Below are positions 574 to 8,121 of a stretch of DNA of 8,121 bases, piece after piece. Each line of letters starts with the position of its first letter. Position 1 is the first letter of the stretch. Source of the DNA: Candidatus Heimdallarchaeota archaeon (GTDB lineage Archaea; Asgardarchaeota; Heimdallarchaeia; Hodarchaeales; LC-3). A model generated the notes under the pieces. That model had not been told where the DNA came from and searched no databases. It was given only the letters and a program-made list of their open reading frames with translations. The translations under genes and the position numbers were made by a program. Location of the stretch: contig DAHXPE010000085.1 in NCBI GenBank assembly GCA_027364495.1, forward strand, positions 1-8,121. Reading direction: 5' to 3'.

Positions 574-756
574 ATGCATTGTTCATTATGCGAAAAAGAA
601 ATTAGTAATTATTCTCCTTCTATACATGAATTATTAATCGATGAGAATCATGTTTATGAAATTTGTTTAAATTGTATCGATAAAATTATGAAATGGCAAC
701 AAAAATCTATTACAAAATTATTTCCGACTAAAGCACTTAAAAGGCGTTTTAATTGA
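574..756 (+). CDS. Small zinc-binding protein with two CxxC motifs
   Basis: The protein has 60 residues. Cys3-x2-Cys6 near the N-terminus and Cys31-x2-Cys34 in the middle form a four-cysteine zinc-binding site of the treble-clef or zinc-ribbon type. After the second pair come an amphipathic helix (IDKIMKWQQKSITKLF, about 35-50) and a basic tail (TKALKRRFN). From memory, short archaeal proteins with this layout, including a KWQ...KLFPTKA-like tail, recur in archaeal genomes without a known function; a role in nucleic-acid or ribosome contact is only a guess. The ATG is preceded by GGAG at 563-566 with a 7-base spacer, and by an AT-only palindrome, TTAAAATTTTAA, at 532-543 that could serve as the TATA box. 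It is divergent from the winged-helix gene. It is intact, with a normal start and stop. Confidence 0.8.
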   Translation: MHCSLCEKEISNYSPSIHELLIDENHVYEICLNCIDKIMKWQQKSITKLFPTKALKRRFN

Positions 757-1894: not shown

Positions 1895-1955
1895 CTTGTA
1901 ACGATTTAATTTACAGGTAACAAGATTACCATAAAATGGAAGATAATTAAGAAAA

Positions 1956-2570
1956 AAAGTTCCAAATTTTTTCTTAAAATTTGGTTATGGATGATTTGTT
2001 TCTTCAGATCAGTATAATCCTAACTATGCTAAAATTATGCCAAAAAATCATTTCTTTAGGGAAATTCAATCTAATTATTGGAATTCAGAAATTAGAATCT
2101 CAGAATATGAAAAAATGATGTAACTTATCAAGTTATCATTTGAAACTTCATTAGTCATCTATTCAATGATTTCTAGAAGAATTTTTGATGAACTTCCAAA
2201 CTTATTTGTAGCATTTATACATGGCGAAGATTTTTTCCAGAAAGAATAGGTGATTTTGAACACGGTTTTATTGTTAAACCCGATTTTTTGGCAATTGATA
2301 ATAAGAAAAATCCTGAAAATTATTTAGGAAAATTTGGGTCGATTCTTTAACTCATGATTCTAAACAATTACAATAAATATTGAGTAATTTGGTGAGGATA
2401 AAATAGCTCTTGGAACAGATTATCCGTTCCCGTCAGAAGAAGCAGAACCCGGAAAATTAATTTAGTCAATGGATTACTATTAAGACAAAAATGAAAATTA
2501 TTGAGATTTAATGCATTTGATTGGTCAGGAATTTCATAAGATAAATAGCAAAAATATACCTAAGATTTAA
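1956..2570 (+). pseudogene. Decayed ACMSD (2-amino-3-carboxymuconate-6-semialdehyde decarboxylase)
   Basis: The intact enzyme, a zinc amidohydrolase, decarboxylates ACMS in the kynurenine/3-hydroxyanthranilate route, diverting it from quinolinate and NAD. Three-frame reading recovers family blocks in the correct order: VPNFFLKFGYG (1959-1991); HFFREIQSNYWNSEIRISEY (2049-2108); DVTYQVI; SFETSLVIYSMISRRIFDEL onward to FIHGEDFF (2136-2237); PERIGDFEHGFIVKPDF, then NPENYLGKF; VDSLTHDSKQLQ; and GEDKIALGTDYPFPSEEAEP plus GKLI. These match animal and bacterial ACMSD as I remember them, including the catalytic His (HGxxFP, 2220) and the metal-ligand Asp (GTDYPFP, 2418). Damage: stops at 1992, 2374, 2463, 2481 and 2502; frame changes near 2117, 2236, 2334 and 2389; and loss at about 2136 of roughly a third of the protein, including the central metal-binding His. 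The N-terminal HxH motif is not visible. It cannot make an active enzyme. Confidence 0.88.
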
Positions 2571-3869: not shown

Positions 3870-3876
3870 ATATTTT

Positions 3877-4294
3877 CTAGAACGTCAATTCATTATATCT
3901 CTTCAGTACTTCTTGGTAGGCTTTTTCAGTGTCAAAATGTTCAAATTTAGAAATATTCGCAACTTCTTTAAGAATAAGAAAAAAGTTTATTTTTTATTTT
4001 TCCTTCATGACTGAGTTAATCTATAGTTCATATTTTCTTGGCAAAACGAGGACAACCAACAGAAATTAGGTGTGTTTTTGGCTTGTGTCCAAATTTGGCT
4101 AGTCAGAATGAATCTTTTATTGTCAGATGAGAGTTTAGCTTCTTCCAATACATATTATTACGCTTCAGTTAATTCACTGAATCCAATCTTAGTTTGATAT
4201 TTTCCATTGTTATATGAAGCTGACAAAAATCGCTGAAATTACTATTCTTCTTCTCTTTCATTCAATTTTTACATCAAATAGTTTTATCTGCCAT
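3877..4294 (-). pseudogene. Decayed gene of unknown family, probable N-terminal zinc finger
   Basis: Minus-strand reading from the ATG at 4294, 4 bases after the permease stop codon, gives a broken protein of roughly 140 residues. Pieces: MADKTI-stop-CKN-stop-MKEKKN, then SNFSDFCQLHITMEN; after a frameshift near 4205, GKYQTKIGFSELTEA, two TAA stops (4160-4155) and YVLEEAKLSSDNKRFILT; after another shift, KFGHKPKTHLISVGCPRFAKK (4096-4034, of which the last residues overlap the next frame); then KYEL, a stop, and a run ending in ISKFEHFDTEKAYQEVLKRY to a TAG at 3877. If the second TGA replaced a Cys codon, the start would form C-x2-C-x12-C-x2-H, a plausible zinc finger. The tight spacing suggests that it was once co-transcribed with the permease. 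I cannot name the family. Protein-like composition in consecutive blocks argues against random sequence. Confidence 0.6.
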
Positions 4295-6953: not shown

Positions 6954-8121
6954 CTAGCTAATTTTTTGTAATAATAAATTAGATAAAGTCTTATTAGTCT
7001 CTTCAAAAAAATTAACTTTTGTTTTCAATTGATTAAAGTCATTGTACGACCTAATAGATTTATTTAAAGAAAATGATTCAGAAAAAATATTACCAAGGAA
7101 GTTTAAAAATTGTCTTGGAATAACTATTCCAAAAACTATGTTTGCAGTTTTATTTCTCCTTTTGTCAATAAGAGTAGAGTCATGCATTGTGAATGAATAA
7201 CATATAACAGATAACTCTTTTTCTCTTATAGGAAAAGGAATTATAAATTGATTTTCAATAAAATTTTGTCCGATGCCTATAATAGCTATTGAGCTTACAG
7301 CAAAGAGAGCAAATTCTTTGTCTGTTAAATTGTACACTTTAACCATATTATCTGATTTTAATACCGTTTCAGGCCCCGACTCTGAATTTGTGGAAAGTAC
7401 CCAACCAATTATTCCTTTTTCAATCAAATATTTAGGATTTGCTTTTTCGTGAAGCGTTATTATTGGATTTTGAGCTATCATTAACGTTATAAAAATATAA
7501 GAAAAAGATATAAAAAATCTTGAAATGAAAAATAGAGCGTTTGAAATTCCTAATAAATGAATTGGTAAAATTAGGCCTAAATAGTTTAAAGATACTCCAG
7601 CAAGCATCAACCATGAAGAATAAAGACTTTTTCTTTTGATATCTTGAGAAATAATAAAATCAGGATAATTTTTTTGCCAAAAAGTATACAAGAAAAGAAC
7701 TAGGATCAGTAATGAAAACGCTATTAGTACCAAAATTGATACAAAAGGTGCTGTATATCTTTTCAAAATACCATTTTCTATATATAAGCCATAAACCGAG
7801 GAATTAGGATTATTAATTAATAATAAAGATAATTTAATTCCAGCAAGAAGTGCGAAAGCAATGGCTCCTATCCTAGCAAATATAGAGCGTTTAATTCCAA
7901 AATGAGATTGATTAAAAGTAAAGAACAAAAAAATAAATCCCAAAGTTCCAAAAATAACTCCTAATTCTTCAATTGTTATTAATTCTGTTAAGGAAAAAAA
8001 ATCTTGAGTAACTAAAACTGGAATACCAGCTAAAACCCAAAGTAATGCGAAAATATCAGCAATAAAAAGTTGTACAAGAAATATTGAAGGGAATTTAATA
8101 CTTATTTTTGTAAAATAAAGT
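6954..8121 (-). CDS. Multi-pass membrane protein with soluble C-terminal domain (5' end outside window)
   Basis: The reading frame is open from the right edge to the TAG at 6954, so 388 residues are visible and the start lies beyond 8121. An internal TTG at 7943 should not be taken as the start. Visible residues form about six membrane helices: FLVQLFIADIFALLWVLAGI, LGVIFGTLGFIFLFF, ARIGAIAFALLAGIKLSLLL, FVSILVLIAFSLLILVLFLY, SWLMLAGVSLNYLGLILPIH and LFFISRFFISFSYIFITLMI; a further helix upstream would make seven. After NPIITLHEKANPKYL comes a soluble domain of about 155 residues starting GIIGWVLSTNSESGPE and including KEFALFAVSSIAIIGIG and LSVICYSFTMHDSTLID. The strand pattern and the Gly-Pro turn recall longin/roadblock-like sensory domains, but this is a weak resemblance. 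No kinase, GGDEF or methyl-accepting motif is seen. A membrane sensor is a reasonable guess. It is convergent with the Usp gene. Confidence 0.75.
   Translation of the reverse strand, partial: LYFTKISIKFPSIFLVQLFIADIFALLWVLAGIPVLVTQDFFSLTELITIEELGVIFGTLGFIFLFFTFNQSHFGIKRSIFARIGAIAFALLAGIKLSLLLINNPNSSVYGLYIENGILKRYTAPFVSILVLIAFSLLILVLFLYTFWQKNYPDFIISQDIKRKSLYSSWLMLAGVSLNYLGLILPIHLLGISNALFFISRFFISFSYIFITLMIAQNPIITLHEKANPKYLIEKGIIGWVLSTNSESGPETVLKSDNMVKVYNLTDKEFALFAVSSIAIIGIGQNFIENQFIIPFPIREKELSVICYSFTMHDSTLIDKRRNKTANIVFGIVIPRQFLNFLGNIFSESFSLNKSIRSYNDFNQLKTKVNFFEETNKTLSNLLLQKIS

Follow-up and report, generated by a model that had tools for sequence, protein, structure and literature searches.

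ACMSD is the branch point at which ACMS is either burned or cyclised to quinolinate, a precursor of NAD. As described in an excerpt of PMC10143591, ACMSD and a spontaneous cyclisation that yields quinolinate compete for ACMS. For Heimdallarchaeia MAGs, the part of PMC11193907 used here reports a kynurenine route to NAD, and the aspartate route to NAD has likewise been reconstructed there; a passage of PMC4217691 calls the aspartate route characteristic for Archaea.

At least 80 bacterial kynU loci were profiled from the matches listed (bacterial by their titles, with no Asgard locus among the matches listed). Of the 80 listed loci, 39 have an ACMSD-family match upstream of kynU and on the same strand, at a distance of up to 200 nt in 12 of them and of up to 3.5 kb in the other 27. 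In 5 of the 80 the match is elsewhere in the stretch, and 36 have none, including 5 with less than 1.1 kb of upstream sequence. Eight of the 39 upstream matches share only 28–31% identity with the best query; these probably belong to a different ACMSD-like subfamily. Without these eight, 31 of the 80 listed loci have an ACMSD (at least 39% identity) no more than 3.5 kb upstream of kynU in the same orientation.

The stretch of DNA analysed here (8,121 nt in total, referred to as the window) has a comparable layout, with the remnant of an ACMSD gene preceding kynU on the same strand. In bacterial clusters such as L003 (Bacteroidetes), L019 (Flavobacteriales), and L050 (Neomarinimicrobiota), ACMSD is likewise directly upstream of kynU. 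The gap is 18–139 nt in the eight bacterial loci of at least 62% identity, compared to 73 nt in the window (counted from the last aligned base to kynU); the gaps in L003 and L019 are very similar to the latter (68 and 74 nt). In the bacterial clusters, however, the ACMSD matches are full length and HAAO is on the same contig in six of the eight, whereas the window has no further pathway gene: neither TDO, IDO, arylformamidase, KMO, and HAAO nor nadC was found in its 8,121 nt with Pfam and NCBIfam.

The solved ACMSD chains 4igm, 4ofc, and 2wm1, which we take to be human ACMSD, are matched over almost their full length by two open relatives of the remnant, P0121 and P0243 (453 and 463 bits). P0121 stops about 20 residues short of the other open relatives. 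The remnant differs from the solved chains in that its frame is not open and that HxH, the histidine of HPW, and 123 central residues are missing.

The ACMSD remnant

Positions 1840–2609 of the window are not overlapped by any ORF of at least 60 aa. An ORF list thus hides the remnant and makes the kynureninase look like an orphan, which is the main use of the finding. When ACMSDs were compared to the window by tblastn, P0121 matched in frame 3 at 1947–2114 (+, E 3e-15) and at 2124–2477 (+, E 6e-14), while P0124 and P0130 matched in frame 2 at 2234–2536 (+). The two frame-3 blocks reach 50–72 bits, compared to a best value of 24.6 bits in 200 resampled regions. With the frames joined and X placed at stops, phmmer returned 625 matches, the best at 1.4e-43. 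A frameshift-aware alignment to the intact ACMSD P0243 spans 1947–2536 (+) with a score of 386 and 115 identities among 198 aligned residues; the maximum over 40 first-order Markov resamplings was 39 (mean 30.6). The Pfam domain Amidohydro_2 (PF04909) matches with 27.2 bits (cutoff 26.4) when the frames are joined along this alignment; a cruder join yields only 18.4 bits, which is under the cutoff. NCBIfam has no match for the remnant, nor for the open ACMSDs P0121 and P0243. Because the score of 386 contrasts with at most 39 after resampling, and because the remnant shares a clade with open ACMSDs (100/99, see below), we conclude from the sequence comparisons that the remnant descends from ACMSD and not from another amidohydrolase. 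The family assignment made in an earlier, sequence-only reading of this DNA thus stands. The individual blocks are listed in Table 1.

Table 1. Coordinates of the blocks of the ACMSD remnant and of the kynureninase gene in the window
Feature	Position	Strand	Frame	Residues of P0243	Remarks
ACMSD remnant, block 1	1947..2114	+	3	19–74	One internal stop; tblastn and frameshift-aware alignment
ACMSD remnant, block 2	2115..2231	+	3	198–236	One internal stop; after the internal deletion
ACMSD remnant, block 3	2231..2335	+	2	237–271	tblastn and frameshift-aware alignment
ACMSD remnant, block 4	2335..2379	+	1	272–286	tblastn match of P0122 at 2329–2370
ACMSD remnant, block 5	2379..2477	+	3	287–319	GTDYPFP; internal stops
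ACMSD remnant, block 6	2477..2536	+	2	320–339	Degraded C-terminus
Kynureninase (KynU), intact, 419 aa	2610..3869	+			TIGR01814, 450.2 bits (cutoff 246.4)

Seven open ACMSDs served as queries in the frameshift-aware alignment (P0243, P0244, P0245, P0249, P0242, P0121, and P0281). The aligned frames contain six stops with P0243 and P0249, five with P0244, P0245, and P0121, and four with P0242 and P0281. The number of frame changes is four with P0243, P0244, P0245, P0249, and P0281, five with P0242, and three with P0121, for which the alignment is shorter. A deletion of 123 residues (75–197 of P0243) is located at the window junction 2114/2115. This junction and its 123-residue gap are obtained with six of the seven queries; the alignment of P0281 begins only at 2124. 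The far edge of block 4 is query-dependent (2373–2391), and block 6 is placed differently with P0242 and is missing from the P0121 alignment. The 18 N-terminal residues of P0243, including HxH, were not found upstream of block 1.

The zinc ligands of ACMSD are presumably HxH, the histidine of HPW, and the aspartate of GTDYPFP. HxH was not found, the HPW histidine is inside the deleted stretch, and the aspartate is kept; the stretches FGYG, FFRE, AFIHG, and GTDYPFP are retained. With the core gone, and with it three of the four presumed zinc ligands (those of HxH and HPW), the pseudogene in all likelihood yields no decarboxylase.

The sequence-only reading had described ordered ACMSD blocks spread over three frames, with at least five stops and a large internal loss, and had proposed a frameshift-tolerant search. 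Such a search did find an ACMSD-family alignment across the joined frames, with the frame chain 3/3/2/1/3/2; the loss corresponds to the 123-residue deletion, and the number of stops is four to six, depending on the query. The observation was right, but the bounds given for the remnant (1956–2570) need revision: it starts 9 nt earlier, and the aligned part ends 34 nt before 2570. The block HGEDFFPERIGDFEHGF crosses a frameshift, and the list of blocks was incomplete, since the frame-1 block (WVDSLTHDSKQLQ) and the degraded C-terminus were missing.

We consider it very likely that the window carries an ACMSD pseudogene beside an intact kynureninase gene. The remnant is probably a unitary pseudogene, and both its enzyme and the pathway are known ones. 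The gene loss is clear but ordinary, being another case within such a pathway. Programmed frameshifting or stop read-through was considered and rejected: several shifts and stops, together with the missing 123-residue core, preclude an enzyme.

Kynureninase and the archaeal relatives

The kynureninase gene had also been called intact and directly downstream, and this is confirmed by its TIGR01814 match (Table 1). The protein has its full length and retains key residues. In an alignment with chain 3e9k, presumably the human enzyme, H71, S300, and N301 correspond to H102, S332, and N333 of that chain, and K244, which we take to be the PLP lysine, is common to all 88 kynureninase rows aligned. 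H102, S332, and N333 are assumed to favour 3-hydroxykynurenine. Deducing the substrate from these residues was nevertheless rejected: the HKSN set is present in 77 of the 80 bacterial loci listed and does not separate genomes with HAAO from those without. Among the matches listed, nine of ten HAAO-less bacteria also carry H102/S332/N333.

The seven closest relatives of KynU have 66–79% sequence identity, and P0005 carries the name kynureninase. In a quick tree, KynU is in a 17-row clade (SH-aLRT 99) which includes the Candidatus Heimdallarchaeota protein P0015. Because its end branch (0.16) is similar to those of its relatives P0002 (0.13), P0003 (0.12), P0004 (0.19), and P0005 (0.21), there is no sign of kynU decay. 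The protein cluster which contains the KynU of the window comprises two proteins from separate contigs, of which the longer has 8792 bases.

In a 44-row ACMSD tree, the remnant is in an 8-row clade (bootstrap 100, SH-aLRT 99) with P0121, P0242–P0246, and P0249. A wider 15-row set (98/89) adds P0247, P0248, P0250, P0253, P0254, and the proteins from Heimdallarchaeota LC_2 (P0281) and LC_3 (P0279). Rows with bacterial names, and one named as an amoeba, are among the remaining 29. The branch of the remnant is very long (2.27), as expected of a decayed sequence, and its exact place within the 8-row clade is unsure. A previous quick tree, in which archaea were less well represented, had joined the remnant to P0121 in a 7-row group (SH-aLRT only 93). 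P0121, P0242–P0245, and P0249 are mutually 76–80% identical; the remnant has only 57–60% identity to these, and a good part of its divergence has therefore probably accrued after the loss.

The sequence-only reading had spoken of an archaeal cluster. Both trees group the pair with proteins named Heimdallarchaeota, which supports an origin from an Asgard, Heimdallarchaeia-like archaeon; this assignment is drawn from the trees of two adjacent genes, the ACMSD remnant and kynU. The archaeal ancestor would have carried an ACMSD-kynU pair, in an arrangement that is common in bacteria. The pair was probably acquired from bacteria, with both the ACMSD and the kynureninase tree being unrooted.

To what extent the relatives keep both genes was analyzed with the longest contig of each protein cluster, which was compared by size and source for 120 x 120 listed ACMSD and KynU rows. 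Contig size and source are equal for KynU P0002 and ACMSD P0243 (14442, ena), for P0003 and P0249 (10272, lgn), and for P0005 and P0245 (18982, jgi). Pairs are thus found for three of the seven closest KynUs, and two further pairs occur lower in the listed rows. According to a rough simulation, chance would produce 0.07 matches over 9 kb across the full lists, and about 0.001 among the top sets. Neither the other four of the seven KynUs (contigs of 2–3 kb) nor P0121 (20697) has a pair among the listed rows. The three relatives are from the same family branch as the window and differ from it in having an open ACMSD, while that of the window is broken. It is thus well supported, as read from contig tables, that the nearest relatives still carry an open ACMSD and kynU on one contig. 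An intact ACMSD-kynU pair in related genomes had been suggested as a check; an open ACMSD on a contig equal in length and source to that of kynU was found in three of seven cases. A search with the broken remnant did not list the open proteins P0243, P0245, and P0249.

Because the nearest relatives seem to have kynU and an open ACMSD on one contig, a recent loss of ACMSD which is confined to this lineage is well supported. An ancient loss common to the whole clade was rejected, given the open ACMSDs whose contigs match those of three close kynUs in length and source.

Possible fates of the pathway

The consequences of ACMSD absence were surveyed in 79 bacterial kynU genomes of the 80 listed (L069 was left out), many of which are fragmentary MAGs, with a threshold of E 1e-20 for ACMSD matches; the statistics ignore shared ancestry. 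A strong ACMSD match (at least 39% identity) is found in 51 genomes, a match of only about 30% identity in 13, and none in 15. HAAO is over the cutoff in 50 of 51, 12 of 13, and 7 of 15 of these genomes, respectively, and nadA in 29 of 51, 5 of 13, and 9 of 15. HAAO is missing in 8 of the 15 ACMSD-less genomes compared to 1 of the 51 with a strong match (Fisher p 9e-6, with the 13 genomes having only an about 30% identical match left out). The absence of ACMSD is not linked to that of nadA: of the HAAO-positive genomes, 4 of the 7 lacking ACMSD and 22 of the 50 with a strong match have no nadA (p 0.69), counting nadA below the cutoff as missing (G002, G042, G070). Both fates proposed in the sequence-only reading, quinolinate with NAD and a stop at anthranilate, occur in the surveyed bacteria with similar frequency. 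The earlier claim that kynU without ACMSD is unusual is weakened, as 15 of these 79 genomes, many of them fragmentary MAGs, have no match at E 1e-20.

Without ACMSD, any ACMS produced by 3-hydroxyanthranilate dioxygenase would not be drawn off and would cyclise to quinolinate. It may be that all flux from 3-hydroxyanthranilate now ends in quinolinate and NAD, and that the kynurenine pathway is retained for biosynthesis. We regard this as plausible but tentative. It is consistent with the competition between ACMSD and cyclisation (excerpt of PMC10143591), with the kynurenine route reported for Heimdallarchaeia MAGs (part of PMC11193907), and with the seven of 15 ACMSD-less bacterial genomes which have kept the dioxygenase, four of them without nadA over the cutoff (one of the four, G042, has a nadA fragment under the cutoff). 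However, HAAO, KMO, and nadC are not among the genes found within the window, the bacterial survey gives no nadA association, and the aspartate route, in the parts of PMC11193907 and PMC4217691 cited above, makes the need for a second one doubtful. Alternatively, the ring-cleavage branch may have been lost too, so that KynU would yield only anthranilate or 3-hydroxyanthranilate, plus alanine. The distribution of HAAO in the ACMSD-less bacteria argues for this, while the set H102/S332/N333, presumed to favour 3-hydroxykynurenine, argues against it but is just as present in nearly all HAAO-less bacteria; we consider such a truncated pathway conceivable, though rather doubtful.

That the remnant is a redundant copy seems unlikely to us; the job would then be done by another, intact ACMSD in the genome or by a distant ACMSD-like amidohydrolase. 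A precedent might be seen in the 13 of 79 bacterial kynU genomes which have only an about 30% identical ACMSD-like protein, adjoining HAAO in five of them (G012, G018, G043, G048, G054), but second copies are rare there, with a single match at E 1e-20 in 61 of the 64 genomes having an ACMSD match. Highly improbable is a sequencing or assembly error in an intact ACMSD gene. The frame breaks are small shifts, of a kind that errors can make, but errors would have to account at the same time for the 123-residue deletion, the lost N-terminus, four to six stops, and an amino acid divergence that leaves 57–60% identity to relatives which are 76–80% identical among themselves. Read errors are also made unlikely by the larger ORFs around the remnant, which are open: three neighbours (419, 475, and 310 aa) are complete, and a further one, of at least 388 aa, continues beyond the end of the window.

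If the pseudogene beside an intact kynureninase is accepted, the recent loss, with open copies in sister archaea and a kept kynureninase, would allow the catabolic and the NAD-making uses of the pathway to be compared. This comparison would fall within one archaeal group that is presumably close to the ancestry of eukaryotes. As a speculative extension, a Heimdallarchaeia-like archaeon might through this loss have converted its tryptophan catabolism to a dedicated kynurenine route to NAD resembling that of animals and fungi, and sister archaea with and without ACMSD might then be a natural comparison of catabolic and biosynthetic pathway use. The case would gain in interest if HAAO and nadC were present in a genome devoid of ACMSD, nadA, and nadB. 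A literature search on the Heimdallarchaeia/Asgard kynurenine pathway, kynureninase, NAD+ biosynthesis, and ACMSD pseudogenes found this loss in no title or abstract opening among the papers listed.

Other features of the window and of the bacterial genomes

A second gene remnant is at 801–964 (−), in two frames (NHSSSPIVR... and ...IKLGTELTFTYG), within a region (757–1215) that is not overlapped by any ORF of at least 60 aa. When joined, the pieces reach 23.0 bits for the SET domain of Pfam (cutoff 22.4, E 1.1e-4) and have no NCBIfam match. Between kynU and an amino acid permease gene, a possible third remnant is at 3870–4290 (−), with coding-like pieces in several frames, ending ...EKAYQEVLKRYNELTF; these pieces have no match in Pfam or NCBIfam.

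A 60-aa ORF at 574–756 (+) has two CxxC pairs (CSLC, CLNC) and by eye resembles a small zinc ribbon, with no Pfam match over the cutoff. The ORFs at 1216–1839 (+; 207 aa), 99–470 (−; 123 aa), and 6954–8120 (−; at least 388 aa) have no Pfam or NCBIfam match; by eye, the product of the last resembles a multi-pass membrane protein. No tRNA or Rfam family was matched in the window. A plasmid collection gave no match, and viral contigs gave 25 pattern matches and no relative.

The 13 bacterial genomes having only an about 30% identical ACMSD-like amidohydrolase are G006, G011, G012, G018, G024, G032, G035, G043, G048, G054, G056, G067, and G069. Its proximity to HAAO in the five genomes named above suggests a distinct ACMSD-like subfamily in bacteria.
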